Shown: piece after piece, positions 8,747 through 31,423 of the stretch
Numbering within the stretch: the stretch's first letter is position 1
Layout: each line of letters starts with the position of its first letter
NCBI GenBank assembly: GCA_012719415.1
Contig: JAAYAK010000068.1
Coordinates: forward strand, 1 to 33,678
Length of the DNA: 33,678 bases
Origin: Syntrophorhabdus sp.
GTDB taxonomy: Bacteria; Desulfobacterota; Syntrophorhabdia; Syntrophorhabdales; Syntrophorhabdaceae
Direction of reading: 5' to 3'
Notes under the pieces: generated by a model
Database searches by the model: none
Told to the model about the DNA's origin: nothing
The model's input: the letters and a program-made list of their open reading frames with translations, nothing else
Position numbers and translations under genes: made by a program

Positions 8747-9916
8747 CTATAGATATATGATATTCACCAGCTTCCCCATGGATCTCAGTTTGTCCGCGAG
8801 GAGCCTGACGATAACGTCTCTCGGGTATACACCCATCTGCCTGAAGACTATATGTTCGTGTCCCGGATTTGCCGCCGTTCCAACGAGGAAATTGATCGTA
8901 TCGGAGGCGTGGAAGAACCTGTAGAGATCTGAAACTGATGAATCAGGCTCGAGTTTCTCGGGTGCCTCCCCCAGGATATTGTACACCTGGTTGAGGGTGA
9001 TCGCACCCTCCGTCGCATAGTCCACGCCTTTTATATCATAAGACGGTGGTTTATGGTAGGCATTTGACATGTTCTTCATCTCGACAGGGACGCCGAGATT
9101 GCGGGCGACGATCTCGGCGGTGGACGACCCGCACACGATCCTCATTCCCTTCGTGTCCATGAATTCCCTGACCACTCTGGCATCGTCCATCTTCCGCGCC
9201 GGCGGCCCCGTCAGGATGTTGAGGACCCGTGCCTCGCGGCAGAGCAGGAGACTGCACGTGGTGTCATCCCCGTACGTCGCGCCCGAGATATCCCGCACGT
9301 TGGCCACGATCCTGCCGGGGATGTCCTTCATGAGCGTGCCCTGCGCAAGGAGGCCGTTTATGAAGTCGCAGGCCCCCTGAATGCCCCAGCCCATGCGGTA
9401 CTGCTGGCCGAGGCCTGCCTGACTGACCCCGTCGCTTACCATGACGACGCTGTCACCGTATTCGAGCATGCAGTTGACCTCGCCCACCATCTCGAGACCC
9501 ATGGGAAAGACACGCTGCTTCGGCAGGTAAGCGGCCAGGCGGTTGTTGATGAGGATGGGAGAGGGGATCTCGTAGGAGACCACCGTCGCGTGGCCGCTCA
9601 CGAGGACACGGCAAACGGAAAAGGCGGAGAAGGGAATGTCCATGGTCCGTGCCGCGTGCATGGTCTCGACGACCTTCTGGCATGCCTCACGAAGCGTGAA
9701 GCCCACCCGGATGAGCTCCATGAGACGGGAGGCGCACATGACAGCGGCAACCCTCGCCTTGATGCCTGTGCCGATCCCATCGGCCACGATCACGGTTGTT
9801 GCCTCGGCCGTACGCTCGGTTGTTATGTAATCTCCGCATATGCCGCCCGGCTTCTTTGCCGCCTGGGCGTTCGTCGCTTCGATGTACTTTCTCGGTTCAT
9901 CGGGTACTGCTTTCAT
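8747..9916 (-). CDS. SpoIIE-family PP2C phosphatase with extra C-terminal domain
   Basis: A 389-residue protein whose start overlaps the end of the sensory hydrogenase gene by 20 bases. The first 230 or so residues form a PP2C/SpoIIE fold with its metal-binding aspartates: VIVADGIGTG (about residues 43-52), VVMVSDGVSQ (about 158-167) and YGDDTTCSLLL (about 216-226). Such phosphatases dephosphorylate STAS anti-anti-sigma proteins in partner-switching systems. The C-terminal 150 or so residues (from GPPARKMDD onward, with IVCGSSTAEIVARNLG and GVDYATEGAITLNQVYNIL) are a separate domain that I cannot name. Overlap with the [FeFe] sensory hydrogenase points to H2 or redox control of phosphatase activity (inference). 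No STAS protein is visible in the window, so the target is unknown. Confidence 0.83.
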   Translation of the reverse strand: MKAVPDEPRKYIEATNAQAAKKPGGICGDYITTERTAEATTVIVADGIGTGIKARVAAVMCASRLMELIRVGFTLREACQKVVETMHAARTMDIPFSAFSVCRVLVSGHATVVSYEIPSPILINNRLAAYLPKQRVFPMGLEMVGEVNCMLEYGDSVVMVSDGVSQAGLGQQYRMGWGIQGACDFINGLLAQGTLMKDIPGRIVANVRDISGATYGDDTTCSLLLCREARVLNILTGPPARKMDDARVVREFMDTKGMRIVCGSSTAEIVARNLGVPVEMKNMSNAYHKPPSYDIKGVDYATEGAITLNQVYNILGEAPEKLEPDSSVSDLYRFFHASDTINFLVGTAANPGHEHIVFRQMGVYPRDVIVRLLADKLRSMGKLVNIIYL

Positions 9917-11633
9917 CGCCTTCGCTCAGACTCATCAGTTTTCTCACCAGTTCCTCACCGCGGGCGGTGCTCTCACCCAGGAACTGCGCTATGTTCTGGG
10001 CCATCTTTATCTGGTGTTCAAGGAGTTCGTTTGCCTGTTCCACCGTCTGGGAACGGATCTCCTTGAGCTTCTTCTCGTGTTCCTGCTGGCTCGTTATGTT
10101 GATGAAGATACCGACGATCTGCTTGTCCTCCTTGAGCATGTACAGGAGTTGGCGGCACAGGAGGTTGTACGGGCGGTGCAGGACGGTGATGTCCATGGTC
10201 TCCGTGATGCCGGATATGAGCTTCTCGAAGGGAGCCGGGTCCATGAGATAGGATATGTGCCGCCCCAGAATGACGTCGCTGCAGGAAAAGAACTTCTTGA
10301 ACGCCGGGTTCATGCCGAGGATGTTCAGTTCATCGTCGAGCAGGAGAACGCCGTTGGGCGTGGTGCTGAAGATCTGGTCCGTGCGTCTTTCCGCTAGACG
10401 TCTCATGTAGGGGATGCACATCTCGGGTTCCGCCATGCCGAGAACCACGGCGATGGCCTTTTCCCTGCAGCTGTCGTAACCGCAGGCCCCGCAGTTCAGC
10501 TGTTGTTCGGGGTCCTGTTTGCCGGTGCGCGCCAGGACCTCCTGGATCTGCTGTTCCGTAATGTTGCCCGGCGATGGGCCGCTGTCGTTCCTGGTGAAGG
10601 CGGCCTTCAGGAGATCGCTTTCCACGGGGTCGGGAGTGATCGAGACGGCCGCGCTTTCCGCAGTGTATTCGATGATCTCCTGCCTGCGTTCGAAGAGGTT
10701 CTTGCCGGAGTCTACGCCGGGACCGTTGATGCACCCCTGGCTGCAGAACAGGGGTTCAATGAGGGCGTGCCCCGTGTCTTCTCCGACACCGTTCAGGAGT
10801 TCGCGAACGCCCTGGGGGCTGTCGACGCGCAGAAGGCTGAGGTTCAATCCATCGTCGTCGAGGCCGGCCGTCTTGATGAGACCACCGGGCAACGGGTACA
10901 ATTGCGCATTGTGGACGGGCTTTTCGTCGAAGCTGCTCTCCTCGCACATGGACAGGTCAATGTTCTTCTGCTCAAGCCAGGCGTTGAGTTCCTTGAAGGT
11001 GAGGACGCAATCCACGACGCCGGCAATGTCCGGCCGGTTCAATTCGGATTTTTTGGCCACACAGGGGCCGATGAAGATGACCTTGGTGTCCTTGCCGAGT
11101 TTTTCTTTGAGGAGCCTGGCGTGCGCCACCATCGGGGATGCGATGGGGAGCAGGTAGTCGATCAGCTCGGGTTTGTACTTTTCGATGTAGTTTATCAGGG
11201 CGGGACACGCCGTGGTTATGTGGGGCTTTGTCGTATCCGCTTTGGCGAGCCTCTGTGATTCGAGTGATACCTGGTATGCCCCGTGGGATGTTTGCCCCAC
11301 GTAGCGGATGCCAAGGGCGCGGAGGGCCGATGCCAGACGCGAGCGCTGCCATTTGTTGAACACGGCAGGAAAGGAAGGGGCTATGCTGGCAGCGACAAAG
11401 TGCCCTTCGTCAATGAGGCTCTGAGCCACGTTGATGTCACTGCGGAATGTTTTTGCCTGCTGGGGGCATTCCCTGATGCAGGTGCCGCAGGCGATGCAGC
11501 GTTTCTCATCCACGTACGCCTGCCCGTTCTGCATGCGGATCGCCTTCACGGGACAGGCCCTGAGGCACCTGTAGCAGTCCCGGCAGCGGGCTGTCAGCGT
11601 GTAGACGATCTGCGGTTTCTGTGTTTCAAGCAT
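9897..11633 (-). CDS. hydS: sensory [FeFe] hydrogenase (group C-like) with FeS and PAS domains
   Basis: A 578-residue protein. Order: two N-terminal [4Fe-4S] motifs (Cys 17-27 and 46-56 regions), H-cluster domain, an FeS domain CGACGYDSC...C (381-406), PAS (about 412-515), and a C-terminal coiled coil (about 516-570) with no kinase or DNA-binding domain. H-cluster loops: TTACPAL (Cys143 kept), GPCVAKKSE (Cys191), LFCSQGC (Cys297, Cys301). All four cluster cysteines are present, but the proton-transfer Cys of catalytic enzymes (TSCCP) is Ala142, as in characterised sensory hydrogenases such as HydS of Thermotoga maritima. It probably senses H2 or redox state and signals through the PAS/coiled coil to the overlapping phosphatase gene product. 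It overlaps hydA upstream by 8 bases. Confidence 0.88.
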   Translation of the reverse strand: MLETQKPQIVYTLTARCRDCYRCLRACPVKAIRMQNGQAYVDEKRCIACGTCIRECPQQAKTFRSDINVAQSLIDEGHFVAASIAPSFPAVFNKWQRSRLASALRALGIRYVGQTSHGAYQVSLESQRLAKADTTKPHITTACPALINYIEKYKPELIDYLLPIASPMVAHARLLKEKLGKDTKVIFIGPCVAKKSELNRPDIAGVVDCVLTFKELNAWLEQKNIDLSMCEESSFDEKPVHNAQLYPLPGGLIKTAGLDDDGLNLSLLRVDSPQGVRELLNGVGEDTGHALIEPLFCSQGCINGPGVDSGKNLFERRQEIIEYTAESAAVSITPDPVESDLLKAAFTRNDSGPSPGNITEQQIQEVLARTGKQDPEQQLNCGACGYDSCREKAIAVVLGMAEPEMCIPYMRRLAERRTDQIFSTTPNGVLLLDDELNILGMNPAFKKFFSCSDVILGRHISYLMDPAPFEKLISGITETMDITVLHRPYNLLCRQLLYMLKEDKQIVGIFINITSQQEHEKKLKEIRSQTVEQANELLEHQIKMAQNIAQFLGESTARGEELVRKLMSLSEGDESSTR

Positions 11634-13650
11634 TCTGCCTTACCTCTTCGGCGAGGTCCACCCCCTCGCGCTTGATGGCCTCGATGGCCCTTTCTATGGT
11701 GCAGCCTTCAATGATCCTGCTCCCTACCTTTATTGTCGGTCCAGTCTTGCATTTCTCAAAGCAAAAAGAAGCTTTCACGTTCACCCTGCCGCCGAGGCCG
11801 TTTGAACGTATATGCTCAAGTATATCACGGAGCAGCTTCTGGGAGCCCTTGAGGAAGCAACTGGTGCCGAAGCAGACGCTGACGTCGACACTTCTCTCGC
11901 CGCCGGCGTTTATGTCAACATCCTCATCGGATATACGTTTTCGGGTCCTGTAGCTCGTGTGGAGGAGTTCGTGGGCTTTGTGGCTTCCCACGTCACCGAG
12001 GACGTTCTCGTAGAGGTTCTTGATGTAGGGGTTGTCCTGGGACTTATGGAGTTCCAGCATGCGGTCGTTCTCGTAGAGGCCCTTTGTCCTTTTCTGCCTG
12101 ACGGCCTGGTCGGAGAAAACGGGCTGGCCGGCGCCGCCGACGCAGCCGCCGGGGCACGCCATTACCTCGACGAGGTCGTAGTGGGTCTCCCCGGATTTTA
12201 TTTTCTCGAGGACACGCCTCGTGTTGCCGAGGCCGCTGACGACGGCGAGGGTGAAAGTCTTGCCCGCCACGGTGAGTTTTGCCTCGCGAAGGCCATCCTC
12301 TCCGCGGACAGAGGCAAACTCGTAGCTGTCGAGTCTCTGGTCTGTGAGTCTTTCGGTGACGTAGCGCAGAACGGCCTCGCTGACACCTCCGGAATTGCCG
12401 AAGATGACCCCGGCACCGGTCTTGAAGCCGAAAGGCAGATCGAACGATTCCAGGCCCAGTTCCCTGAAATTGAGACCGGCTTCTTCGATCATCCTGCCGA
12501 ATTCCTGGGTGGTGAGGACATGGTCCACATCCCGCACCCCGTCCCTCTCGAATTCCGGCCTTTTCGCCTCGAACTTCTTCGCCGTGCAGGGCATTATGGA
12601 AACAACGATCACATCCTCGCGCTTAACGTTCAGCTCGCTGGAGAGCATTTCCTTCGCCAGGGCGCCGAACATCTGCTGTGGCGAACGGCAACTTGAAAGA
12701 TGGTCCACGAACTCCGGATAGTATTGCTCGACGAACTTGACCCACGCCGGGCAGCATGACGTGAACTGCGGTATTCTGTCGCCGGCCGTGACACGCTTTA
12801 TGAATTCGTTGCCTTCTTCCAGCACGGTAAGATCGGCGGTGAAGGATGTGTCATAGATCTTGTCGAAGCCGATCGCTCTCAGTGCCGCCGCGATCTGCCC
12901 CGTGGTTGTGGTTCCCGGGGGGAGGCCGAACATCTCTCCAACGGCTACCCTTACAGCGGGAGCCACCTGCGCCACCACGACCCTGGAGGGGTTGTGAATG
13001 TCGGCCCACACGTCATCGACCTCGGATTTCGGAGTGAGGGCACCGGTGGGACAGACGCGGACACACTGTCCGCAATTGACGCATTCCACCTTGTCGAGCG
13101 CCTTGCCGAAAGAAGGGATGACGACCGTTTGCGCTCCCCTGTAGGCGAAGTCGATGGCGCCGACACCCTGCACTTCGGAGCAGATGCGCACGCAGTCGCC
13201 GCAGAGGACACACTTGTTCGGGTCCCTGACGATGGACGGTGAGGATTCGTCGAGGGGCATTTCTTTCAGCTGGTTCTTGAAACGCACCTTCGTGATGCCG
13301 AATCGTTTCGCGAGCGCCTGAAGCTGGCAGGTGGTGCTCTTCTGGCAGGTGGGGCAGTTCTGGCTGTGGTTGGCAAGGAGAAGCTCCACGATGATCCTGC
13401 GCATCTTCCGGATCTCCTCCGTGTTGGTACTCACCTTCATATCGGGGGCGGGCGGGGTGGAGCAGGCCGGAACGAGGCCCATACCCTCGACCTGCACCAT
13501 GCATAGCCTGCAGGCGCCGTATATGCTCAACTCCGAATGGTAGCAGAAGGTGGGCAGATCGATCCTCGCCTTCCTGACAAGCTCCAGGAGGTTCTGCTCG
13601 TTCTCAATGGATATCTCTTTATTATCGATGTAGACAACGTCGCCGTTCAT
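11626..13650 (-). CDS. hydA: [FeFe] hydrogenase catalytic subunit HydA (group A3-like), copy 1
   Basis: A 674-residue protein; AAGGAGA precedes the ATG. Order: N-terminal [2Fe-2S] (Cys36, 47, 50, 63), the His-ligated [4Fe-4S] motif (His95, Cys99, 102, 108), two [4Fe-4S] clusters (Cys147-157 and 190-200), H-cluster domain with FTSCCPAW (Cys299, Cys300), MPCTAKKFE (Cys355) and EVMACPGGC (Cys499, Cys503), and a C-terminal thioredoxin-like [2Fe-2S] domain (Cys593, 598, 630, 634). All catalytic and proton-transfer residues look intact. With HydB and HydC encoded just upstream it should form a cytoplasmic NAD(P)H- and ferredoxin-dependent bifurcating or confurcating hydrogenase. It is the only one of the three HydA proteins here with the extra C-terminal [2Fe-2S] domain. 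Confidence 0.93.
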   Translation of the reverse strand: MNGDVVYIDNKEISIENEQNLLELVRKARIDLPTFCYHSELSIYGACRLCMVQVEGMGLVPACSTPPAPDMKVSTNTEEIRKMRRIIVELLLANHSQNCPTCQKSTTCQLQALAKRFGITKVRFKNQLKEMPLDESSPSIVRDPNKCVLCGDCVRICSEVQGVGAIDFAYRGAQTVVIPSFGKALDKVECVNCGQCVRVCPTGALTPKSEVDDVWADIHNPSRVVVAQVAPAVRVAVGEMFGLPPGTTTTGQIAAALRAIGFDKIYDTSFTADLTVLEEGNEFIKRVTAGDRIPQFTSCCPAWVKFVEQYYPEFVDHLSSCRSPQQMFGALAKEMLSSELNVKREDVIVVSIMPCTAKKFEAKRPEFERDGVRDVDHVLTTQEFGRMIEEAGLNFRELGLESFDLPFGFKTGAGVIFGNSGGVSEAVLRYVTERLTDQRLDSYEFASVRGEDGLREAKLTVAGKTFTLAVVSGLGNTRRVLEKIKSGETHYDLVEVMACPGGCVGGAGQPVFSDQAVRQKRTKGLYENDRMLELHKSQDNPYIKNLYENVLGDVGSHKAHELLHTSYRTRKRISDEDVDINAGGERSVDVSVCFGTSCFLKGSQKLLRDILEHIRSNGLGGRVNVKASFCFEKCKTGPTIKVGSRIIEGCTIERAIEAIKREGVDLAEEVRQNA

Positions 13651-13653
13651 TGC

Positions 13654-15546
13654 TCAGTCTCCTTTGATCGCCTTGAATTTGCAGGCTTCCACGCAGATGT
13701 AGCATTTTCTGCATATGCTCTGGTCGATGACATGGGGTTTCCCTTTCTCTCCCGATATGGCGCCGACGGGGCACTTGGCCGCGCAGAGCGTACAGCCTTT
13801 GCATAACTCCGGGTCTATCGTGAGCCTCACCAGGGCCTTGCATTTTCCCGTGGGGCAGCGCTTGTCACGCACGTGCGCGATGTACTCGTCGCGGAAGTGC
13901 TTCATCGTCGAGAGGACCGGGTTGGGTGCCGTCTTGCCGAGCCCGCAGAGCGAGCCTTTCTGGACGGCGACCGCGAGGTCCTCGAGAAGGTCGAGCGTCT
14001 CCATTGTGGCCCGTCCCCCTATGATATCGTCGAGGAGGGCAAGCATTTGCTTCGTCCCTTCACGGCAGAGAACGCACTTGCCGCAGGACTCGTGCTGTGT
14101 GAACTGCATGAAGAAGCGTGCCACGCTGACCATGCAGGTGTTCTTGTTCATGACGACGAGGCCGCCGGAGCCGACCATGGCGCCGACGGTCTTCAGGGAA
14201 TCGAAGTCGATGGGAAGGTCGAGATGGTCACGGGTGAGGCAGCCCCCCGAGGGACCACCTATCTGCACGGCCTTGAAGCCGTCGCTCACGGCCTTTCCCG
14301 TATCGGAGGTCATACCTCCCGCGACACCGTAGATGATCTCGCGCAGCGTAGTGCCGAAGGGCATCTCTATGAGGCCCGAATTCGCCACGTGGCCGGTAAG
14401 GGCAAAGGTCTTCGTGCCCGGGGATCCCTTCGTGCCCATCTTGCGGTACCCCTCGGGGCCGGCGGCAAGCACCAGGGGCACCTGCGACAGGGTCTCCACA
14501 TTGTTGATCACCGTCGGCTTGCCCCAGAGGCCGCTGACGGAAGGGAAGGGCGGTTTCGGGGAGGGCATGCCCCTTTTCCCCTCGATGGAGGCGATGAGGG
14601 CCGTTTCCTCTCCGCAGACGAAGGCGCCGGCGCCCTCCATTATGTTCAGGTTGAAGGCGCGTTCCGTGCCGAAAAGGTTCTTGCCGAGCAGGCCGACGCG
14701 GTAGGCATCGTCTATGGCCTTGCGCAGGCGCTTGACGGCGAGCGGGTATTCGGCTCGTACGTATATGTAGCCTTCATCGGCCTCAATGGCCCGCGCGGCT
14801 ATGATCATGCCCTCGATGACGCTGTGGGGATTGCCTTCCATGATGCCCATGTCCATGAAGGCGCCAGGGTCTCCCTCGTCACCATTGCAGATGACGTACT
14901 TCTTTGCGTTTGTCTCGCGCCGGGCGACATCCCACTTCCTTCCCGTGGGGAAGCCGCCGCCTCCCCGTCCGCGCAGACCCGCGGCGAAGATGAGCTGGCA
15001 GATGTCCTCGGGGCTCATTTCGAGATAGGCGCGAATGGCCTGCCTGTATCCGCCGGACGCGATGTATTCCTCTACGCTCTCGGGGTCGATGGCGCCGCAG
15101 TTGGAAAGCGCGAAGCGGTGTTGTTTCCGGTAGAAGGGGATCTCGTCCTTGGTGCGGCACACCCTCTGCGAGTCGGGTTCGACGTAGAGAAGCCTCTCCA
15201 CGACGTCTCCCTTCCGTATCGTTGTCTCCACTATTTCGGCGACGTCGCCCGGTTTCACCTTCGTGTAGAATATGTTCTCGGGAAGGACGGTGACGAGAGG
15301 CCCTATCTGACAGAACCCCTGGCAGCCGGTGCGCGACACGAAGACGCCCTCTTCCTCCTTCTTGAGCTCGACGATGGCGTTGAGCCCGCTTTCCTTCAGG
15401 GCCTTCACGAAGGCCTCGTACACCTTGAGGGACCCGTTCACCAGGCATCCCGTTCCCGCGCAGACGAGGACGCGGTGTTGGGCGGCCGCCGAGCGGGCCT
15501 GAAAATCCTTGGTTATCTTGTTAAGCCCCGTGAGCATCAGATTCAT
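13654..15546 (-). CDS. hydB: hydrogenase subunit HydB (NuoF-like flavoprotein), copy 1
   Basis: About 630 residues from the ATG at 15546, chosen for AAGGAGG directly upstream; this start overlaps hydC by 26 bases. Domains: N-terminal thioredoxin-like [2Fe-2S] (Cys29, 34, 75, 79), NuoF core with the glycine-rich NADH/FMN region GLRGRGGGGFPTGRKW (about 190-205) and NGDEGDPGAFMD, a SLBB-type section, the [4Fe-4S] motif CGKCVLC (Cys488, 491, 494 plus Cys534), and a C-terminal two-cluster ferredoxin (Cys582-592 and 612-622). This is the complete HydB architecture of trimeric bifurcating hydrogenases, oxidising or reducing NAD(P)(H) through FMN. It is the reference against which the two degenerate or fused copies in the right-hand operon can be compared. 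Confidence 0.93.
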   Translation of the reverse strand: MNLMLTGLNKITKDFQARSAAAQHRVLVCAGTGCLVNGSLKVYEAFVKALKESGLNAIVELKKEEEGVFVSRTGCQGFCQIGPLVTVLPENIFYTKVKPGDVAEIVETTIRKGDVVERLLYVEPDSQRVCRTKDEIPFYRKQHRFALSNCGAIDPESVEEYIASGGYRQAIRAYLEMSPEDICQLIFAAGLRGRGGGGFPTGRKWDVARRETNAKKYVICNGDEGDPGAFMDMGIMEGNPHSVIEGMIIAARAIEADEGYIYVRAEYPLAVKRLRKAIDDAYRVGLLGKNLFGTERAFNLNIMEGAGAFVCGEETALIASIEGKRGMPSPKPPFPSVSGLWGKPTVINNVETLSQVPLVLAAGPEGYRKMGTKGSPGTKTFALTGHVANSGLIEMPFGTTLREIIYGVAGGMTSDTGKAVSDGFKAVQIGGPSGGCLTRDHLDLPIDFDSLKTVGAMVGSGGLVVMNKNTCMVSVARFFMQFTQHESCGKCVLCREGTKQMLALLDDIIGGRATMETLDLLEDLAVAVQKGSLCGLGKTAPNPVLSTMKHFRDEYIAHVRDKRCPTGKCKALVRLTIDPELCKGCTLCAAKCPVGAISGEKGKPHVIDQSICRKCYICVEACKFKAIKGD

Positions 15547-16027
15547 TGCGCGCCTCCTTGAGTATGATCTCGTCGATAATGTCCGATACCCGCTGGGGTG
15601 TAAGCTGGCCAAAGACCTCGTCGTTGATGACCATGGCCGGCGAAAGACCGCAGGCACCGAGGCAATTGACGGTCTCCACCGTGAAGAGCATGTCCGACGT
15701 GGAATCCTGGCCTTCGGCGAGGCCGAGCTTCTTCACTATGGCTCCGTAGATTCCCATCGAGCCCTTGACGTGGCACGCCGTCCCGTTACAGACCCGTATC
15801 AGGTACTTCCCCTTGGGTTTCAGGGTGAAGAGCGAGTAGAAGGTCGCCACTCCGAACACCCTTGCGGGAGATATCCCGAGGGATGTTGCCACGAAGGTCA
15901 GTATCTCTTCCGGCAGGTAACGATACTCCGCCTGCACTGCCTGGAGAATGGGTATGAGCCTCGCGGCGTTTCGCTGGTTGTTGTCGATGATCTCGCAAAC
16001 CCGTTCGAATTTTCGCATTGTCTCCAT
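15521..16027 (-). CDS. hydC: hydrogenase subunit HydC (NuoE-like [2Fe-2S] protein), copy 1
   Basis: A 168-residue thioredoxin-like [2Fe-2S] protein with the NuoE pattern: helical N-terminus (LIPILQAVQAEYRYLPEE), FGVATFYSLF, then CNGTACHVKG (first ligand pair) and CLGACGLSPAM (second pair). It forms the electron-transfer subunit of the HydABC complex. A GGA-rich stretch precedes the ATG at 16027. It lies 15 bases after rex and overlaps hydB by 26 bases, so rex, hydC, hydB and hydA are almost certainly one transcript. Confidence 0.92.
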   Translation of the reverse strand: METMRKFERVCEIIDNNQRNAARLIPILQAVQAEYRYLPEEILTFVATSLGISPARVFGVATFYSLFTLKPKGKYLIRVCNGTACHVKGSMGIYGAIVKKLGLAEGQDSTSDMLFTVETVNCLGACGLSPAMVINDEVFGQLTPQRVSDIIDEIILKEARNESDAHGA

Positions 16028-16042
16028 TATTCCATCCCGTCC

Positions 16043-16714
16043 TTACGATTGGTTTTGTCTTGCCAGTGTCAGTTTCTTTGCCAGGACCACGAGAGACGAG
16101 GCGAGGTTCTCGTGCTGGACGATGATGCCGGGAGGGACGCTCACCTTCACCGGCGAGAAGTTCCAGATCGCCTGCATGCCGGCGCGGACCATCTCATTCG
16201 TCAGTTCCTGGGCGGGGGGTGCGGGAACGGTAAGGATCCCGATCTTGATGCCCATGCGTTTCACCATGTTGTGGAGCTTGCCCATGTGAAAGACCTTGAC
16301 CCCATGGATGGTCTTCCCTATCTTTTCCTTGTCGATATCGAAGGCGGCTATGATGTTGAGACCGTACTCCTTGAACCTCTCGAAACCGAGGAGCGCCGTG
16401 CCGAGATGGCCGACACCGACGAGATAGGCATCCTTCGTGTTGTTCCAGCCAAGGAAGGCCTCTATGATCGAGATGAGCTCGTCAATGCTGTAGCCGAGCT
16501 TCGGTTTCCCGACGGCCTCGGCGATCCCCAGGTCCTTGCGGACCTGAATGGGAAGTATGCTCAGGTCGTTCCCGATCTGCGTGCAGGAGATGAAATCCCC
16601 CTTCTGTTCATCACGCACTTTCTTCAGGTACTGGTAATAGAGAGGGAGCCTCCTCAGTGTTGGTTCCGGGATGGGTTTGGTTGGAAGATCTATCCTGTCC
16701 TCCACGTCTGCCAT
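16043..16714 (-). CDS. rex: redox-sensing transcriptional repressor Rex
   Basis: About 223 residues from the ATG at 16714, selected because GGAGGT stands 5 bases upstream; an in-frame ATG at 16735 would add seven residues. The N-terminal winged helix includes PEPTLRRLPLYYQYL and a recognition region around LSILPIQVRKDLG (about residues 45-65). The Rossmann domain shows the NAD(H)-binding GVGHLGTALL (about 97-106) and the acidic loop AFDIDKEKIG, and the C-terminal NFSPVKVSVP motif is conserved. Rex dimers bind DNA when NAD+ is high and release at high NADH. As first gene of a hydrogenase operon, it probably derepresses H2 production when NADH accumulates. A palindrome fitting a Rex operator overlaps its own promoter. 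Confidence 0.93.
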   Translation of the reverse strand: MADVEDRIDLPTKPIPEPTLRRLPLYYQYLKKVRDEQKGDFISCTQIGNDLSILPIQVRKDLGIAEAVGKPKLGYSIDELISIIEAFLGWNNTKDAYLVGVGHLGTALLGFERFKEYGLNIIAAFDIDKEKIGKTIHGVKVFHMGKLHNMVKRMGIKIGILTVPAPPAQELTNEMVRAGMQAIWNFSPVKVSVPPGIIVQHENLASSLVVLAKKLTLARQNQS

Positions 16715-16763
16715 GCTTACCTCCATCTCGTTCATTCGATAATTTCCTATCTATAAAAATGTA

Positions 16764-16781
16764 TCGATAAAAATATATCGA
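16764..16781. promoter_or_regulatory. candidate Rex operator upstream of rex
   Basis: TCGATAAAAATATATCGA is a palindrome with two perfect 6-base half-sites around a 6-base AT-only spacer, which is the layout of known Rex sites (TTGTGA-N6-TCACAA type) with different half-site bases. It overlaps the -10 of the rex promoter. A third copy of the half-site (TATCGAATGA versus TCATTCGATA at 16732-16741) forms a wider 10-base inverted repeat. Assignment to Rex is inference from position and geometry. Confidence 0.5.
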
Positions 16782-16800
16782 ATGACCCTCCCCGAGTCAA
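16772..16800 (-). promoter_or_regulatory. sigma70-like promoter of the rex-hyd operon
   Basis: On the minus strand TTGACT (16795-16800), a 17-base spacer and TATATT (16772-16777) give a near-consensus promoter about 50 bases before the rex start. The -10 lies inside the palindrome at 16764-16781, so a bound repressor would block polymerase. Confidence 0.6.
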
Positions 16801-16815
16801 TATGTTTTTGAAACC

Positions 16816-16904
16816 GTTTTAAGTTTTAAGTGGTTAAGTGTTAAGTTGAGGCGAAAGACAAGAACTCTTTTCATCTGTAACCTGGAACCTGGAACCTGGA
16901 ACCG
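16816..16904. repeat. degenerate short-period repeats (TTAAGT- and CCTGGAA-type)
   Basis: First come TTTTAAG, TTTTAAG, TGGTTAAG, TGTTAAG, then, after a break, three tandem copies of the 7-base unit CCTGGAA. This is the clearest tandem example of the intergenic repeat style found across the window. Confidence 0.6.
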
Positions 16905-16918
16905 CCTCCAAAAGGGTT

Positions 16919-16940
16919 GCCCCCGGGAGGCGCCGGGGGC
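16919..16940 (-). terminator. GC-rich hairpin, possible terminator
   Basis: GCCCCCGG (16919-16926) pairs with CCGGGGGC (16933-16940) around the loop GAGGCG. On the minus strand it is followed by AACCCTTTTGG, a weak T-tract. It would separate minus-strand transcription arriving from the small 17.5-kb gene from the rex promoter. Confidence 0.4.
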
Positions 16941-17015
16941 ATGTAAAAACGCATAAGGGGGGGGGTGATGGTATCGTGAAGATGACTCTTCAGAGCCTCA
17001 GTTGCAATTTAATTT

Positions 17016-17244
17016 GTGAGTCGGGGACATGGCCTCGGGTACACCATTTGAGGTCCTTGCCGACAGCGGTGATTTCGTCTGCCGGTAGGGGAGGGACGAA
17101 GTGGAGGTGGTGTGGGGAGCTCGATCGTGTGCGTAGAGAGGGCTTAGAGGTGGTCCAGATAGTTGCGAAGGCGAACATGAGGGTCAACATGAGCATGAGG
17201 TTATTCAGTATCAGGTCGGACATTCTTCACGTCCCCCGACTCAC
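17016..17244. repeat. possible MITE-like element bounded by imperfect inverted repeats
   Basis: GTGAGTCGGGGACATG at 17016-17031 is the inverted counterpart of CACGTCCCCCGACTCAC at 17228-17244, with one base difference and one extra C. The two ends are 229 bases apart. No transposase is encoded between them. Small size, inverted ends and intergenic position suggest a miniature element or a relic of one, but no target duplication was identified. Confidence 0.35.
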
Positions 17245-17249
17245 GTTAT

Positions 17250-17294
17250 GGGAAGGAAAGGTGAGGGACTTGCGGTACCTCACATTTCCTTCCC
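17250..17294. repeat. 17-bp near-perfect stem-loop
   Basis: Bases 17250-17266 and 17278-17294 are inverted repeats of 17 bases with one mismatch, around an 11-base loop. The structure begins about 40 bases after the stop of the small minus-strand gene. No T-run follows on the minus strand, so it is a stable RNA hairpin or repeat element rather than a standard terminator. Confidence 0.55.
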
Positions 17295-17333
17295 CTGATA
17301 GGTTGCAGCATGTGCTGAATGATGCCGTGGATG

Positions 17334-17675
17334 TCATCGCGTCACCCGCCCGTGAGGGTCGCTGCCGTTGTTCCCCTTCCTGAGCCACACGGTGTGATCG
17401 AGAATGCCGTATTTTTTCAACGTCTCGGCAGCCATCAATCCTATTTCGCTCTCCGCGTGGATATTCTGCGCGGTGTTCCACAATATGTGCAGGCTCACAT
17501 CTCCGGGGACGGCCGAATGGGTGTAGATCCGTGCTTCGTTGAGACCGGGCGTTCCACCGATGCTGTGGACCAGATCTTTCAGCCACTTCACCACAAGCGG
17601 CTCGACATCGGGCTGGGTTCTCAATCGTATGATCTCTATCCATTCCATCATTCTTCCGTGTCCAATCTTAAGCAT
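17334..17675 (-). CDS. small conserved-looking protein of unknown function
   Basis: Up to 113 residues; paired ATGs at 17651 and 17648 (protein beginning MMEWIEIIRLRT) with GGAAGA upstream may be the true start. The sequence alternates hydrophobic and charged residues in a pattern like a ferredoxin-like or dimeric alpha-beta barrel fold (EWIEIIRLRT, ARIYTHSAV, DVSLHILWN, then AAETLKKYGILDHTVWLRKG), but no family can be named with confidence. It diverges from the sigma54-activator gene across a shared palindrome and could be controlled by it. A strong hairpin lies past its stop. It is likely a real gene because the frame is well composed and the start region is plausible. Confidence 0.6.
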   Translation of the reverse strand: MLKIGHGRMMEWIEIIRLRTQPDVEPLVVKWLKDLVHSIGGTPGLNEARIYTHSAVPGDVSLHILWNTAQNIHAESEIGLMAAETLKKYGILDHTVWLRKGNNGSDPHGRVTR

Positions 17676-17824: not shown

Positions 17825-19384
17825 ATGAACGCCGATGAGAATGACTTTTTCCGTGAGATGACCCTGAGGATATGCGGCACCCTGGACCTGGAAAGCGCTC
17901 TTCATCAGTGCTTTCTCTACGTGCGCAACGTCATACCGGCGGACGAACTCGATCTTTTTGTCTACGATGCCACCATCGGCACCGTGGATGTGGTGGCGAC
18001 GGCGAAAGAGGCAGGGGGGACGACGAGGACGGACAAGACGCACCTGCCGCCGGACCTGCGCCAGGAGCTCGAAGAACCCTACCGCCGGCCCCGGGTCCGC
18101 GTTGCCGAGAATATCTTCGAGGACCCCATTCTGGGGAGGGTCGCGCGGAACCTCGGGTGGGAGGAGTGCTCGATAATGCTGGGACGCCTTATCATCGACG
18201 GCAAATACATCGGCGCCCTCGGGATACGGGCGCGGGGGACGGGCCGGTTCACAGAGGACCATGTCCGCTTGTGGTCGGTGGTCAACGAACCGGCGGCAAT
18301 AGCCGTTGCGAACAGCCGCAGGCTCCGGGAGGTGATCGATCTCAAGGACATGCTTGCCGATGACAACCGGTACCTCAGGGAAGAGCTCAGGAAGAACACC
18401 GTCGAGATAGTGGGGGCCGATTTCGGGCTGAAGGCTGCCATGGAAAGCGTGAGGAAGGTGGCGCCCCTTGCCAGCCCGGTGCTCATCATCGGCGAGACGG
18501 GAACGGGCAAGGAGGTCATCGCCAACGCCATCCACAACCTGTCTCCCCGTTATAACGGGCCTTTTGTGAAGGTAAACTGCGGTGCGATCCCGGAGTCTCT
18601 CATAGACAGCGAGCTTTTCGGCCATGAAAAGGGTGCTTTCACGGGGGCGCTGGCACGGAAGAGGGGACGCTTTGAGCGTGCCCATGGGGGGACGATCTTT
18701 CTCGACGAGATCAGCGAGCTCCCGCCCCACGCGCAGGTGAGGCTTCTGCGCGTCCTCCAGGAGAAAGAGATAGAGAGGGTGGGGGGAACGGAACCTGTCC
18801 ATGTTGACATCAGGATCGTATCGGCCACGAACCGGAACCTGGAGAAGATGGTGGAGGACGGCGATTTTCGGGAAGATCTCTATTTCCGCATCAAGGTCTT
18901 TCCCATTGAGGTCCCTCCTTTGAGGGCGAGAAAGAACGATATACCCGCCCTTGTCCAGCACTTTGTCCGAAAGAAGAGCCGGGAGATGGTCCGCCACAGC
19001 ATACCCCCGCTTGCCCCGGGATCCATCGATGCACTCATGACGTATGATTGGCCGGGGAATGTCCGGGAAGTGGAGAACGCCGTGGAGAGGGCGCTCATAC
19101 TTTCCGATGGCAAACCCCTGAAGTTCGAGGGTGTTCTGGGGGTATCCGGAGCCTCCCACGACCGTGCCCCGTCTTTGGCCGGTGAGAGTCCGGGCCCTGT
19201 CGCGCTCAACGACGTCGAGGCCGAGCACATAGGCCGCATCCTGAGAGCGGCCGGAGGCAGGATCGAAGGTCCCGGAGGCGCCGCCGAGCTTCTTGACATG
19301 AACCCGGGAACGCTCCGCCATCGCATGAGAAAACTGGGTATACCTTTCGGCAGGAAATCCCGTGTCAGCGACGGCGGACGGTGA
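17825..19384 (+). CDS. GAF-domain sigma54-dependent transcriptional activator
   Basis: A 519-residue FhlA/NorR-like enhancer-binding protein; AGGGGAGGAG precedes the ATG. Domains: N-terminal GAF (about 10-165), AAA+ ATPase with Walker A GETGTGKE (223-230), the sigma54-contacting GAFTGA (270-275), Walker B TIFLDE (290-295), and the arginine-finger region DLYFRIKVF; then a C-terminal Fis-type helix-turn-helix (about 460-505, GGAAELLDMNPGTLRHRMRKLGIP). The GAF domain could bind a small molecule or a metal. It sits between the two hydrogenase operons and is a candidate regulator of one of them, although both promoters seen here look like sigma70. A T-rich stretch follows its stop. Confidence 0.9.
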   Translation: MNADENDFFREMTLRICGTLDLESALHQCFLYVRNVIPADELDLFVYDATIGTVDVVATAKEAGGTTRTDKTHLPPDLRQELEEPYRRPRVRVAENIFEDPILGRVARNLGWEECSIMLGRLIIDGKYIGALGIRARGTGRFTEDHVRLWSVVNEPAAIAVANSRRLREVIDLKDMLADDNRYLREELRKNTVEIVGADFGLKAAMESVRKVAPLASPVLIIGETGTGKEVIANAIHNLSPRYNGPFVKVNCGAIPESLIDSELFGHEKGAFTGALARKRGRFERAHGGTIFLDEISELPPHAQVRLLRVLQEKEIERVGGTEPVHVDIRIVSATNRNLEKMVEDGDFREDLYFRIKVFPIEVPPLRARKNDIPALVQHFVRKKSREMVRHSIPPLAPGSIDALMTYDWPGNVREVENAVERALILSDGKPLKFEGVLGVSGASHDRAPSLAGESPGPVALNDVEAEHIGRILRAAGGRIEGPGGAAELLDMNPGTLRHRMRKLGIPFGRKSRVSDGGR

Positions 19385-19428
19385 CGCCAAATAAGGTTTT
19401 TTTCTTCACTTTTTTCTTCACTGTCCTT

Positions 19429-19457
19429 TTGACTTCGGAAAGAAAATACACTATACT
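19429..19457 (+). promoter_or_regulatory. strong sigma70-like promoter of the 13-gene hydrogenase operon
   Basis: TTGACT (19429-19434), a 17-base spacer and TATACT (19452-19457) match the sigma70 consensus at ten of twelve positions. Transcription would begin near 19464, leaving about 150 untranslated bases before the first gene. No copy of the palindrome seen at the rex promoter was found here. Confidence 0.6.
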
Positions 19458-19612
19458 GAACAAGCGTGCTCGTCCCTGCAATTAAACAGACAATATTACC
19501 GGGCAGCGAGGCTTTCTGAGGTCGACCCGGGGCAGGTTTGCCGGTCTAAGGAACCGGGGCACGATAACAGTATCGATATACCACCGGTCGACATCCGGAC
19601 GTGAGGTTCTGC

Positions 19613-19963
19613 ATGACATTGAAAGAGGTCCAGGAGCTGCTGGAAGCGCAGGTGCTCTGCGGGAATGACGACTGTCTGGAACGCGGGGTGCGGGTCTGCT
19701 TTGCCTGCGACCTCATCAGCGAGATGCTCCTTTACCTGAAACCCCATTCTCTTCTGATCACGTCGTTGACCAATGCTCATGTGATCCACGCGGCGCAGGT
19801 GATGGACGCGAAGGCGGTCCTCTTCGTCGGGGGACGCAGACCCGACGAGTCCGTTATCAGGAGCGGGGAATCGAACAAGATCCCTCTGCTCACCACAACA
19901 CTGCTCACGTTCGACTGTTGCGGCCGGCTTTACGAGAAGGGCGTCAGAGGAGATAAGCAATAG
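19613..19963 (+). CDS. DRTGG-domain protein, copy 1
   Basis: About 116 residues from the ATG at 19613, which has GTGAGG seven bases upstream; an in-frame GTG at 19601 would add four residues. The sequence (MTLKEVQELLEAQVLCG at the start, SLLITSLTNAHVIHAAQVMDAKAVLFVGGRRPD in the middle, IPLLTTTLLTFDCCGRLY at the end) fits stand-alone DRTGG-domain proteins, whose name-giving motif is degenerate. DRTGG domains occur in phosphotransacetylases and CBS proteins and are suspected ligand-binding modules. Free-standing copies are common beside [FeFe] hydrogenase genes. It is the first gene of the operon; a sensory or adaptor role is inference. A second, diverged copy is encoded at 21.9 kb. Confidence 0.75.
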   Translation: MTLKEVQELLEAQVLCGNDDCLERGVRVCFACDLISEMLLYLKPHSLLITSLTNAHVIHAAQVMDAKAVLFVGGRRPDESVIRSGESNKIPLLTTTLLTFDCCGRLYEKGVRGDKQ

Positions 19964-19985
19964 CCCGGTTAGGAGAGACTAACCA

Positions 19986-20453
19986 ATGGTCGACAGCTTA
20001 GCGTACACCCCGCAGATAACGCTCGAGTTCGAGATAGGCGAAAAGGACTTCTTTGTTGCCGGAGAGTGCGCGTCGCGGGTGAAGAAGACCCTTCAGCAGT
20101 TGGGGCTCAAACAGGATGTCATCAAGCGGATCGCGATCATCATATACGAGGCGGCGATGAACGTTGCGATCCACGCCACGTCGGGAAAACTCGTCGTCCA
20201 TGTCGAGCCCGACGCGGTCACCATTCGGACGGAAGATGTGGGGGCCGGGATCGAGGATATCGACCTTGCGATGAAGGAAGGGTATTCGACGGCGTCCTAC
20301 GAGATCCGGGAGATGGGTTTCGGGGCCGGCATGGGCCTCTCCAACATCAAGCAGTGCTCCGATGATCTCAACATCGAATCCAGGGTAGGTGTGGGGACCA
20401 CACTGAACGCCAGGGTGTCCTTCAAGGACGAGAGACGGCACGAGGGCGCATGA
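19986..20453 (+). CDS. RsbW/SpoIIAB-like ATPase (anti-sigma kinase type)
   Basis: A 155-residue HATPase_c protein without a histidine-phosphorylation domain; AGGAGAG precedes the ATG. N-box YEAAMNVAIHA (about residues 55-65), G1 region EDVGAGIEDIDLA (about 81-93) and the G2 lid FGAGMGLSNIK (about 111-121) are visible, matching RsbW/RsbT-like serine kinases of partner-switching systems. Its last four bases overlap the start of the sensory hydrogenase gene (ATGA at 20450-20453), which indicates coupled synthesis and probably physical interaction. The natural partner of such a kinase would be a STAS protein or sigma factor, none of which is in this window. A SpoIIE-type phosphatase, the opposite activity, is encoded in the rex operon. 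Confidence 0.83.
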   Translation: MVDSLAYTPQITLEFEIGEKDFFVAGECASRVKKTLQQLGLKQDVIKRIAIIIYEAAMNVAIHATSGKLVVHVEPDAVTIRTEDVGAGIEDIDLAMKEGYSTASYEIREMGFGAGMGLSNIKQCSDDLNIESRVGVGTTLNARVSFKDERRHEGA

Positions 20454-21808
20454 ACCGATATTTCCATTCCGTGACGCTGGAGACGGAGAAGTGCAAGGGA
20501 TGCACCAACTGCATCAAACGGTGTCCCGTCGAGGCCATCCGCGTTCGGGACGGTAAGGCGATGATCGTTGAGGAACGCTGCATCGACTGCGGCGAATGCA
20601 TTAGGGAGTGTCCGAACCACGCGAAGGTGGCGGTGACGGACACCCTCGCGAAGCTCTCGGAGTACAAATACAGGATCGCCCTGCCGGCGCCGTCGTTCTT
20701 CGGCCAGTTCAAGGAGCAGGTCAACATCGAGGATGTGCTCGGGGCCTTCAGGGGGATCGGTTTCGACGAGGTCTTCGAGGTCGCCCTTGCAGCGGAGATC
20801 GTCGGCTACATCGTTCACGAGTTCCTGAAGGATTACAAGGGCAAGCGCCCCATCTTCTCCTCCGCCTGTCCGGCGGTGGTGCGCCTCATGCAGATCAAGT
20901 ACCCGGACCTCCTCGAACAGGTGGCGCCCTTCCTCACGCCCATGGAGGTGGCGGCGCGCATCGCCAAGGAGCAGGCGTCACGGAGAACGGGTATCCCTTA
21001 CGAGGAGATAGGGGCGTTCTTCATATCTCCCTGCCCGGCGAAGGTCACGGAAATGAGAAATCCCATGACGACGAAACACTCCGCTGTGAACGGCGTCATC
21101 GGGGTCAACCTTATATACAAGGATATCATCAGGCACCTTGGCGACAGGTTCGCAAACGGCGGACCTGAAAAGCTGCAGCGCGCCACCAAGTTCGGCATGG
21201 CCTGGGGATACGTCACGGGAGAGTCGCGGAATGTCGCCGCGGCCACTACCCTGGCCGTCGGCGGCATCCACAACGTCATCAGCCTCCTGGAAGAGATCGA
21301 GAGGGGAGAGCTCAAGGACGTCGATTTTGTCGAGCTGCAGGCCTGCACCGGCGGCTGCGTGGGAGGGCCTCTCAACATCCAGAACCTCTTCGTGGGGCGT
21401 ATCCGGCTTCGGGACCTCATAAAGCGGTTTGGGACGAAAGAAACCTATTTCACGGAGGCCGAGCTCCAGGATATGTATCTGCAGAACCGGTTTGCCGCCA
21501 CTGAGCCCGTGGAACCGAGGGCGATAATGACCCTCGACGAGGACGTTTCCCGGGCGATCATGAAGATGGAGCGCCTCGACCAGATAACGAACGAACTGCC
21601 CGGTCTTGACTGCGGAGCATGCGGCTCGCCAAGCTGCCGGGCCCTTGCCGAGGACATCATCCGCGGCGTAGCCTTCGAGACGGATTGTGTTATCAAGCTC
21701 CGTGAAAAGGTGAAGATACTGGCAAAGGAGATCCTCGATCTTTCCCGCATCGTCCCGACGTCGATGAGCGGCAATGCGAAGGAGGGCGACCCCGGGCAGG
21801 GATACTGA
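20450..21808 (+). CDS. sensory-type [FeFe] hydrogenase (group D-like)
   Basis: A 452-residue protein: two N-terminal [4Fe-4S] motifs (CKGCTNCIKRC, residues 15-25, and CIDCGECIREC, 44-54), the H-cluster domain, then an FeS domain CGACGSPSC...C (388-413) and a short tail. H-cluster loops: SSACPAV (Cys140), SPCPAKVTE (Cys195), LQACTGGC (Cys299, Cys303). The four cluster ligands are retained, but the proton-transfer Cys is Ala139. It lacks a PAS domain, unlike the sensory hydrogenase of the other operon. The neighbourhood (DRTGG, RsbW-like ATPase, PHP, HydCBA) matches that of group D putative sensory hydrogenases such as that of Thermoanaerobacter mathranii. A signalling role is inferred; very low catalytic turnover is expected. 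Confidence 0.85.
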   Translation: MNRYFHSVTLETEKCKGCTNCIKRCPVEAIRVRDGKAMIVEERCIDCGECIRECPNHAKVAVTDTLAKLSEYKYRIALPAPSFFGQFKEQVNIEDVLGAFRGIGFDEVFEVALAAEIVGYIVHEFLKDYKGKRPIFSSACPAVVRLMQIKYPDLLEQVAPFLTPMEVAARIAKEQASRRTGIPYEEIGAFFISPCPAKVTEMRNPMTTKHSAVNGVIGVNLIYKDIIRHLGDRFANGGPEKLQRATKFGMAWGYVTGESRNVAAATTLAVGGIHNVISLLEEIERGELKDVDFVELQACTGGCVGGPLNIQNLFVGRIRLRDLIKRFGTKETYFTEAELQDMYLQNRFAATEPVEPRAIMTLDEDVSRAIMKMERLDQITNELPGLDCGACGSPSCRALAEDIIRGVAFETDCVIKLREKVKILAKEILDLSRIVPTSMSGNAKEGDPGQGY

Positions 21809-21891
21809 CGGTTATCGGGTTGGTCAGAGGAATATCGGCCTGGTATTATATATGTTTAGAGACGCAATGACACGTTTACAGGGAGGGGATG

Positions 21892-22230
21892 ATGACTGTT
21901 CGTGAACTTGCCGAGGCGCTCGGGCTTGAGGTGCTGACGGGACAGACGAACCTCATGAGGCCGGTGAGGTCGGGGTACACCTCCGACCTGCTCTCCGACG
22001 TCATCGCGAACATTGGCGACGACGCGGTGTGGATCACCATTCAGCGGCACGTGAACATTCTGGGGGTGGCAAAACTCAAGGACGTGTCCGCCATCATCAT
22101 CCCGCGGAAGCTGGGATTGGAAGAGTCGTTCCTGGAAAAGGCAAGACAGGAGGGCATAGCCATTCTCCGGGGGGCTCCTTCGGCGTTCGAGCTTTCTGCT
22201 CTCGTGTATGAACACTTGAAGAGGGGTTAG
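21892..22230 (+). CDS. DRTGG-domain protein, copy 2
   Basis: About 112 residues. Two adjacent ATGs (21889, 21892) exist; the second has better spacing from GGGAGGGG. It resembles the first DRTGG protein in layout: MTVRELAEALGLEVLTG at the N-terminus, YTSDLLSDVIANIGDDAVWITIQRH, then VAKLKDVSAIIIPRKL and IAILRGAPSAFELSALVYEHL. Such proteins may bind a nucleotide or phosphorylated ligand, but no activity is established. It sits between the sensory hydrogenase and the PHP phosphoesterase, with the PHP start 7 bases after its stop. Confidence 0.75.
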   Translation: MTVRELAEALGLEVLTGQTNLMRPVRSGYTSDLLSDVIANIGDDAVWITIQRHVNILGVAKLKDVSAIIIPRKLGLEESFLEKARQEGIAILRGAPSAFELSALVYEHLKRG

Positions 22231-22237
22231 AGAGGGC

Positions 22238-22987
22238 TTGGCGGAATTTGCCTGTGACCTTCATATACACTCGACATTGTCGCCCTGCGGCAGCCTTGAC
22301 ATGTCGCCCCGGGTCATTGTCGAGAAGGCGCGGGAGGCGGGGCTCGATATTATAGCAGTTACGGACCATAACATGGCGGAGAACACACCTTACGTCAAGG
22401 AAGCGGGAGACCGCAGCGGACTCGTGGTCCTGGCAGGCATGGAACTGCAGACCAGGGAGGAGATACACGTCATCGCCATCTTCGACGACTATGACACGGC
22501 ACACGCTCTCCAACGCATGGTCTATGATCTTTTGCCGCCGGTGGCCAACGATGTCGAGTTCTGGGGTGACCAGGTGGTCGTGGACGGGGAGGATAACATA
22601 ATCCGCAGCGAGGAGAGGCTTCTCATAAGCTCGGCAGGGATCTCCATAGAGGATGCCGTCTCCTGGGTAAAGTCGCACGGGGGCCTGGCGATAGCCTCCC
22701 ATATCGACAGTCCGACGTTCAGCATCATAAGCCAGCTTGGCTTCATACCGGCGGACATCCCCTTCGACGCCCTGGAGATACGTGATCTGGAAAAGGCCGG
22801 GAGCTTCATACCCTTCATCATGAAGAAGGACATTCCCTTCGTGACGTTCTCCGATGCCCATTACCCGGGGGACATAGGCAGGAGAAGAACGAACCTGACG
22901 CTCGATGTGCCTGATTGCGCGAACATAGAAGGCGCCCTGAGGTCCATGGGAGAAAGGATGCTCCCGGGACGGGCACGGCAGTTGTGA
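22238..22987 (+). CDS. PHP-domain phosphoesterase
   Basis: A 249-residue protein starting at TTG (22238) with AGAGAGGG upstream. The PHP metal-binding motifs are present: DLHIHSTLSPCG near the N-terminus, VTDHN (about residues 41-45), the Glu in GMELQTREEIHVIAIF, ASHIDSP, and FSDAHYPGD at the C-terminal side. The PHP fold carries di- or trinuclear metal phosphatases and nucleases. Stand-alone members of this kind (TrpH-like) act on nucleotides or short oligonucleotides in some bacteria, but the substrate here is unknown. Placement within the hydrogenase operon, between a DRTGG protein and an ATPase, suggests a signalling or nucleotide-turnover role (inference). Confidence 0.82.
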   Translation: MAEFACDLHIHSTLSPCGSLDMSPRVIVEKAREAGLDIIAVTDHNMAENTPYVKEAGDRSGLVVLAGMELQTREEIHVIAIFDDYDTAHALQRMVYDLLPPVANDVEFWGDQVVVDGEDNIIRSEERLLISSAGISIEDAVSWVKSHGGLAIASHIDSPTFSIISQLGFIPADIPFDALEIRDLEKAGSFIPFIMKKDIPFVTFSDAHYPGDIGRRRTNLTLDVPDCANIEGALRSMGERMLPGRARQL

Positions 22988-23006
22988 ATATGCGGAAGTC
23001 GGCATT

Positions 23007-23537
23007 ATGATGGAGGATATCTCATCCCATATCATGGATATAGCGATGAATTCAGTTTCGGCAGGGGCGCAGCGCATCCGTGTCGCCGTGGAAAAGGACC
23101 CGCGGACGGCAATGCTGAGCCTCACGATAACCGATGACGGGGTCGGGATGGACCAGGAGACGCTGCAAAAGGTGCAGGACCCCTTCTTTTCAACGAAAAC
23201 GGGAAGGAAGGTGGGGCTCGGCATACCCCTTCTGAAGGGGACGGCAGAGACGACGGGCGGCAGTTTCGAAATGACGAGCGCGAAGGGAGCGGGAACGACG
23301 ATACGGGCGACCTTCGACTGTCGTCACCCTGATCTGCCCCCGCTGGGGAAGATACGGGACACCTTTCTCGTTCTTGTCGTGAGCCATCCCGAGGTCGATT
23401 TCGATCTTCGCTATTCAGTGGATGGCAGGTCCTTCGAGCTCGACACGGAGGAACTGAAAAGGGAACTGGACGGTGTCCCGGTGAACCACCCGGAAGTCAT
23501 CAGTTTCCTTGGCAAATATCTTGACGAACATCTGTGA
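23007..23537 (+). CDS. stand-alone histidine-kinase-like ATPase
   Basis: A 176-residue protein with an HATPase_c core: N-box SHIMDIAMNSVSAGA (about residues 7-21), G1 ITDDGVGMD (about 41-49), F-box PFFSTK, and G2 GRKVGLGIPLLKG. No DHp domain and no phospho-accepting His are present. The C-terminal 65 or so residues (from KIRDTFLVLVVSHPEVDFDLRY onward) form an additional small domain of unknown type. This is the second free ATPase of the operon, only distantly similar to the RsbW-like one. It may phosphorylate a Ser/Thr or act as a regulatory ATPase. The gene lies 40 bases before the HndB-like gene. Confidence 0.78.
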   Translation: MMEDISSHIMDIAMNSVSAGAQRIRVAVEKDPRTAMLSLTITDDGVGMDQETLQKVQDPFFSTKTGRKVGLGIPLLKGTAETTGGSFEMTSAKGAGTTIRATFDCRHPDLPPLGKIRDTFLVLVVSHPEVDFDLRYSVDGRSFELDTEELKRELDGVPVNHPEVISFLGKYLDEHL

Positions 23538-23575
23538 TTTTATATAGATTGTTATCATCATAAGGAGGCCGAGAG

Positions 23576-23926
23576 ATGAATCTTGAAGAGCTGAAGAAAA
23601 TAAGGGAAAAGGCGCAAAAGGATGTGGAGCTGCGGCAGAAGCAGGCACGGGTGCGGATCGTCGTTGGGATGGGGACGAGCGGCATAGCCGCCGGCGCGCG
23701 TGACGTGCTCAAAACATTCGTTGAAGAGGTGGGGAAGCGCAACCTTTCCGACGTGGTCGTGACGCAGACGGGCGAGAAGGGCCTTGCCTCGCAGGAGCCG
23801 ATGGTGGAGGTCTTCGAGGAGGACAAACCCGTCGTCGTGTACGGGAACATGGATTCGGAGAAGGCAAAAAGGGTGGTGGTGGAGCACGTGGTCAACGGGC
23901 ACCCCGTTTCGGAATTTGCCATTTAG
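23576..23926 (+). CDS. HndB-like thioredoxin-fold protein lacking all cysteines
   Basis: A 116-residue protein; AAGGAGG precedes the ATG. The body (RIVVGMGTSGIAAGARDVLK, VVVTQTG, MVEVFEEDKPVVVYGNMD) is clearly that of the thioredoxin-like [2Fe-2S] ferredoxins encoded as separate small subunits in NAD(P)-linked hydrogenases, such as HndB of Desulfovibrio. However, there is not one cysteine in the protein: the places where the family carries its C-x4-C and C-x3-C ligands are occupied by Gly/Ser and Glu/Ala-type residues (MGTSG, TGEKGLAS). It cannot hold the usual [2Fe-2S] cluster and is probably structural or regulatory. The next genes are hydC2, hydB2 and hydA2. Confidence 0.82.
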   Translation: MNLEELKKIREKAQKDVELRQKQARVRIVVGMGTSGIAAGARDVLKTFVEEVGKRNLSDVVVTQTGEKGLASQEPMVEVFEEDKPVVVYGNMDSEKAKRVVVEHVVNGHPVSEFAI

Positions 23927-23947
23927 GCAACCAAAAAGGAGGCTGGC

Positions 23948-25983: not shown

Positions 25984-26023
25984 GCCCGATCTGGTCCGGG
26001 CGGTCACATCAAGGAGAGATAGC

Positions 26024-27790: not shown

Positions 27791-27826
27791 GTTTGATCGC
27801 CAGGTAACTCTGAGGGAGGGATGAAG

Positions 27827-28321: not shown

Positions 28322-28336
28322 GGAGGAAGGATAAAC

Positions 28337-31390: not shown

Positions 31391-31423
31391 ATGTGGGTAA
31401 CTGACCCAAGGGAGCAGACCGCT

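Follow-up and report, generated by a model that had tools for sequence, protein, structure and literature searches.

Previous studies gave the canonical Rex sites as TTGTGAA-N4-TTCACAA or TTGTTAA-N4-TTAACAA (the Ravcheev 2012 consensus, as cited in PMC5317091 and PMC8457756). The rex-hyd operon of Caldithrix abyssi (Cabys_3675-3679) resembles the locus studied here in that rex lies directly before a bifurcating [FeFe]-hydrogenase operon and a palindrome was proposed to be autoregulatory, but its site, cTGTGAATCAATTCACAt, is single and near-canonical (PMC5317091). In the Rex-NAD-DNA complex of T. maritima (PDB 7WB3), Arg48 reads G5, Lys49 contacts G7 and A8, and in the wing Arg60 touches T4 and Gly61 touches T3 (PMC8836258); counted from the symmetry centre, G5, G7, A8, T4 and T3 are half-site positions 3, 5, 6, 2 and 1.

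The window, that is, the whole stretch of DNA analyzed here (33,678 nucleotides of Syntrophorhabdus sp.), carries rex followed by hydC, hydB and hydA. On the minus strand, TTGACT-17-TATATT is the only promoter-like match within 16650-17400 (0.6 expected by chance), and the predicted rex promoter is of the sigma-70 type. The features are as follows:

16795 to 16800, minus strand: -35 hexamer TTGACT; TTGAC(A/T/C) is kept here in relatives
16772 to 16777, minus strand: -10 hexamer TATATT, inside site A
16764 to 16781, no strand: putative operator site A, TCGATA-N6-TATCGA, with the -10 inside it; kept in relatives
16750 to 16767, no strand: putative operator site B, TCTATA-N6-TATCGA, one mismatch; overlaps A and C by 4 bp each
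16736 to 16753, no strand: putative operator site C, TCGATA-N6-TATCTA
16043 to 16714, minus strand: rex, PK-wing clade; the open reading frame opens at 16735, the likelier start being the ATG at 16714 after GGAGGT
15521 to 16027, minus strand: hydC, thioredoxin-like 2Fe-2S protein
13654 to 15657, minus strand: hydB, NuoF-like; start of the open reading frame uncertain, overlaps hydC
11626 to 13650, minus strand: hydA, [FeFe]-hydrogenase large subunit

After hydA, positions 8747-11633 of the minus strand encode a protein that has both a hydrogenase and a PAS domain, and a SpoIIE-type phosphatase; the two are possibly a sensory branch of the operon. On the plus strand, more [FeFe]-hydrogenase genes and their NuoF-like partners (20450-21808 and 24403-33148) lie behind a sigma-54 activator gene (17825-19384), and a scan of the window found no GATA-N6-TATC before the plus strand hydrogenase genes (17825-33148).

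An earlier, sequence-only reading had placed a palindrome on the rex promoter, and the palindrome is real: TCGATAAAAATATATCGA, a TCGATA-N6-TATCGA repeat at 16764-16781, encloses the -10 of the promoter upstream of rex and hydCBA. As that reading noted, the half-sites are unlike TTGTGA/TCACAA; they read T(C/A)GATA and keep the 18-bp Rex geometry. Palindrome A taken alone is unremarkable, with a single perfect 6-6-6 palindrome in 907 of 20,000 dinucleotide shuffles (~4.5%) of the 150-bp region; the 3.7-Mb genome holds a single exact copy of TCGATA-N6-TATCGA. Sites A, B and C together form three overlapping 18-bp palindromes in 14-bp steps over the -10 and start region of rex-hydCBA, A and C being exact matches of TMGATA-N6-TATCKA and B having one mismatch. 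Four near-palindromic octamers (ATTCGATA, TATCTATA, TATCGATA and TATCGAAT) stand at this 14-bp pitch, and the rex-strand sequence TTCGATATATTTTTATCGATACATTTTTATAGATAGGAAATTATCGAA contains all of them. When the 150-bp region was shuffled 20,000 times with dinucleotides preserved, three palindromes (at least 5 of 6 pairs) at 14-bp steps appeared once, and the 14-bp self-match never. By the predicted promoter position, the array spans about -16 to +29. A 10-base inverted repeat (16732-16741 with 16776-16785), earlier thought to be a possible second, looping site, does exist, but its arms form the margins of a single unbroken array, and looping between two distant sites was rejected on that ground. 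With 10.5 bp per helical turn, each 14-bp step amounts to a rotation of about 120 degrees, so neighbouring dimers would sit on different faces; sites A and C do not overlap, lie 28 bp apart and could be occupied jointly.

When characterizing related genomes, which were mostly metagenome-assembled, we observed that every one of the 39 genomes of the same family has a Rex 31-37% identical to that of the window, with a canonical wing (e.g. YFGEFGIRGMGY) wherever the wing was read. A second Rex, of the window type, is present in 22 of them; GATA-N6-TATC precedes this second rex in 22/22, nearly all with extra units at 14-bp steps, and it is absent before the canonical-wing rex paralogues among those upstreams read. 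In two close relatives, a fifth unit is inserted in register. Moreover, all relatives with a PK-type wing have hydC and hydB on the same strand after rex, usually 13-60 bp away. Searches of Omnitrophota, Elusimicrobiota and the same phylum returned more Rex genes with GATA-N6-TATC, whose wings read GKPKxGY, GTAKIGF, GKSGVGY, GRPRIGF and SKLRAGF. After clustering at 80% identity, the site was found before 24/33 genes with a non-canonical wing vs 0/9 with a canonical wing, at a chance rate of about 0.8% per upstream (Fisher p = 1.1e-4, uncorrected for relatedness). In the tree, all 24 site-bearing rows fall inside a group of 30 that holds no canonical-wing Rex; the fork joining these 30 has fair support (92/91, drawn open) and the next fork outward 99/92. 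Six of the 30 lack an exact core (none in L104 and L105; degenerate by eye in L111, L128, L130 and L139). At least two core sites (up to one mismatch) in exact 14-bp register occur in 20/30 rows, and no shuffle gave such a pattern. Rows with a single intact site also exist, some of them elusimicrobial, and therefore the 14-bp array is typical, not essential. The G at position 3 and the A at position 6 are invariant in 74/74 half-sites, which had been preselected by the GATA core.

The position of the -10 within the site is fixed across many lineages. In Syntrophorhabdus and relatives, and in most PK-wing Elusimicrobiota, it begins at the fifth base of the 18-mer and reads TATATT, TATAAT or TAAAAT after GA, with TTGAC 16-18 bp upstream. 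In the closest Omnitrophota it falls in an imperfect unit that precedes the exact site by one unit; the sites of the GTAKIGF and SKLRAGF branches start shortly after the -10.

The Rex of the window matched PF06971 (winged-helix N-terminus, E 2.6e-14) and PF02629 (Rossmann domain, E 5.2e-21), scored 281.8 bits against NCBIfam NF003994 (cut-off 130) and matched PDB Rex chains with E down to 8e-35; its GxGxxG nucleotide-binding loop reads GVGHLG. The sequence-only reading had suggested comparing the recognition helix with a Rex of known specificity. Against T. maritima, Arg48 and Lys49 of the helix are kept, but positions 45, 52-54, 60 and 61 differ (PMC8836258). Among the 30 clade rows, position 48 is Arg in 29/30 and position 49 is Lys in all 30; position 60 is Pro in 23/30 or Ala in 5/30, position 61 is Lys in 26/30, and position 45 is Ile in 23/30 (mostly Ala in the canonical set). 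Tyr53-Phe54 is replaced mostly by Ile/Val-Thr.

The site is, like the canonical Rex operator, an 18-bp inverted repeat whose half-site G and A lie equally far from the centre, and the protein family is the same; against the consensus as cited, half-site bases 2, 4 and 5 are changed, the wing Arg-Gly is replaced and the sites overlap in a 14-bp array. T(C/A)GATA thus keeps positions 1, 3 and 6 (T1, G3, A6) and does not match the TTGTGA/TTGTTA half-sites. The half-site base contacted by residue 60 is among those altered, Pro-Lys mostly replaces Arg-Gly at wing residues 60-61, and the wing alignment is unambiguous from sequence. We infer that the residue changes in wing and helix may have caused the base changes in the operator.

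The Tyr-Asp switch pair (Tyr100 and Asp191 in T. maritima) is without match in the Rex of the window, where Phe takes the place of Tyr100 and an Asn is aligned to Asp191 (PMC8836258). In the clade, Tyr is present in 28/30 and Asn in 20/30 members, and the pair is not a strict requirement for Rex membership because it also varies among canonical Rex. The Phe recurs within the genus Syntrophorhabdus and the SKLRAGF branch; most of the clade has the Asn. With the altered pair, the NADH response of this Rex is not assured, and its redox response may differ from that of known Rex.

As for other targets, the earlier expectation of copies before redox genes was borne out in relatives, by their other rex-hyd operons and by adhE in one branch, but not in the genome of the window, where no second target of the new site was found beyond rex-hyd. 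Several NADH-linked operons with the site in one genome, the mark of a Rex regulon, were not seen there, and one-mismatch matches outside the rex promoter were rejected as targets, lying mostly inside long open frames. Outside rex promoters, the 22 genomes gave 10 exact matches of the new pattern vs 13 for the reversed control, which points to a predicted regulon of the rex-hyd operon alone in the family genomes. In the elusimicrobial branch with wing SKLRAGF, rex and adhE are divergent, and the stretch separating them holds two sites spaced by about 107 bp; in 8/10 genomes of this branch they are the sole matches of the pattern. This adhE encodes 889 aa with an aldehyde dehydrogenase and an iron alcohol dehydrogenase; in other bacteria, Rex is known to target adhE (PMC5886521). 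TAGATATAATTATATCAA, found in two genomes and considered as a second elusimicrobial target, was rejected since it falls inside coding sequence.

The canonical pattern TTGTKAA-N4-TTMACAA gave 42 sites in the 39 genomes vs 2 for the reversed control. In the genome of the window, a canonical site lies between an acetyl-CoA synthetase gene and a divergent carbonic anhydrase gene, and in other genomes of the family one precedes an acyl-CoA dehydrogenase gene. Canonical sites and the putative sites of the second Rex are found in the same genomes, so both predicted codes occur within the same cells. Before canonical rex paralogues (L003, L058-L065) there is a conserved element like CTTGWTAAATTTTTCTCTTGC, sometimes twice, which does not have the form of a canonical Rex palindrome.

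We consider it highly likely that the array serves as operator for the adjacent downstream Rex, a member of the PK-wing clade with changed specificity that would autoregulate rex-hydCBA. The changed recognition sequence, raised earlier as a possibility, is supported by footprinting, the co-occurrence of the altered wing, the retained G and A, and canonical Rex and its sites as an internal contrast. The winged helix of the clade would read T(C/A)GATA-N6-TATC(G/T)A instead of TTGTGA/TTGTTA half-sites, with the 18-bp geometry unchanged. By homology with known Rex, an NAD+-bound dimer would sit on one or more overlapping sites and cover the -10 and start region, blocking RNA polymerase and repressing rex and hydCBA; NADH would release it, and the NADH-using hydrogenase would be made as NADH accumulates. 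The array would probably accommodate two dimers (A and C) or a ladder of dimers on the promoter. Binding, repression and NADH response are proposed here by analogy with the Rex family, and the number of dimers is likewise a proposal.

The sites are conserved in the vicinity of rex, so a different regulator could conceivably act on this operon, with rex merely the first gene under its control; all the evidence is positional, and the sigma-54 activator gene at 17825-19384 lies nearby. We regard this as improbable, because the site accompanies this Rex clade even in distant phyla, the changed bases coincide with the expected contacts of the changed Rex residues, the promoter is of sigma-70 type, and in the branch where gene order differs, with rex divergent from adhE, the site still stands beside rex. 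That the repeats reflect an AT-rich promoter and start region, or chance, with no regulator at all, fits the -10 within the repeat and the frequency of one such palindrome in shuffles, but it is the least credible reading, given the 1/20,000 for the array, a core kept across phyla, units reaching past the promoter hexamers and sites before both rex and divergent adhE. A diverged Rex relative very probably binds the sites; their recurrence in three or more bacterial phyla suggests that the DNA code of a sensor has changed in nature.

If Rex is the binder, site A could still be its sole operator, B and C being by-products of repeat duplication. Some elusimicrobial members do have one intact site only, but we think this unlikely in view of the exact 14-bp register of at least two sites in 20/30 members, never seen in shuffles, and of the fifth unit inserted in register in two relatives. 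Returning to the array as a Rex operator, we propose tentatively, at somewhat less than even chances for the whole, that a large Rex subfamily, spread over three or more phyla, switched to GATA-N6-TATC through wing and recognition helix, became insulated from the canonical Rex of the same cells, and binds as a 14-bp ladder of overlapping sites, with adjacent dimers having half-sites in common as they wind around the helix. To our knowledge, such a ladder has not been described for Rex.

Rex is usually treated as having a single conserved operator; annotation that relies on the canonical motif would therefore overlook these hydrogenase operons of syntrophs, Omnitrophota and Elusimicrobiota. Our literature search, which covered papers citing Ravcheev 2012, found no description of a GATA-type Rex site. 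Two Rex proteins with apparently separate codes would share one cell, candidate residues and bases change together, and a specificity switch in an NADH sensor becomes directly testable with a few point mutants. Further, the control of H2-forming hydrogenases would be tied to NADH in largely uncultured anaerobes.

Upstream of rex, at 16918-16941, we also observed a G+C-rich hairpin-forming sequence, GCCCCCGGCGCCTCCCGGGGGC, present at varying distance in L005, L006, L008, L009, L012 and L013 as well, which may be a dispersed repeat or a terminator.
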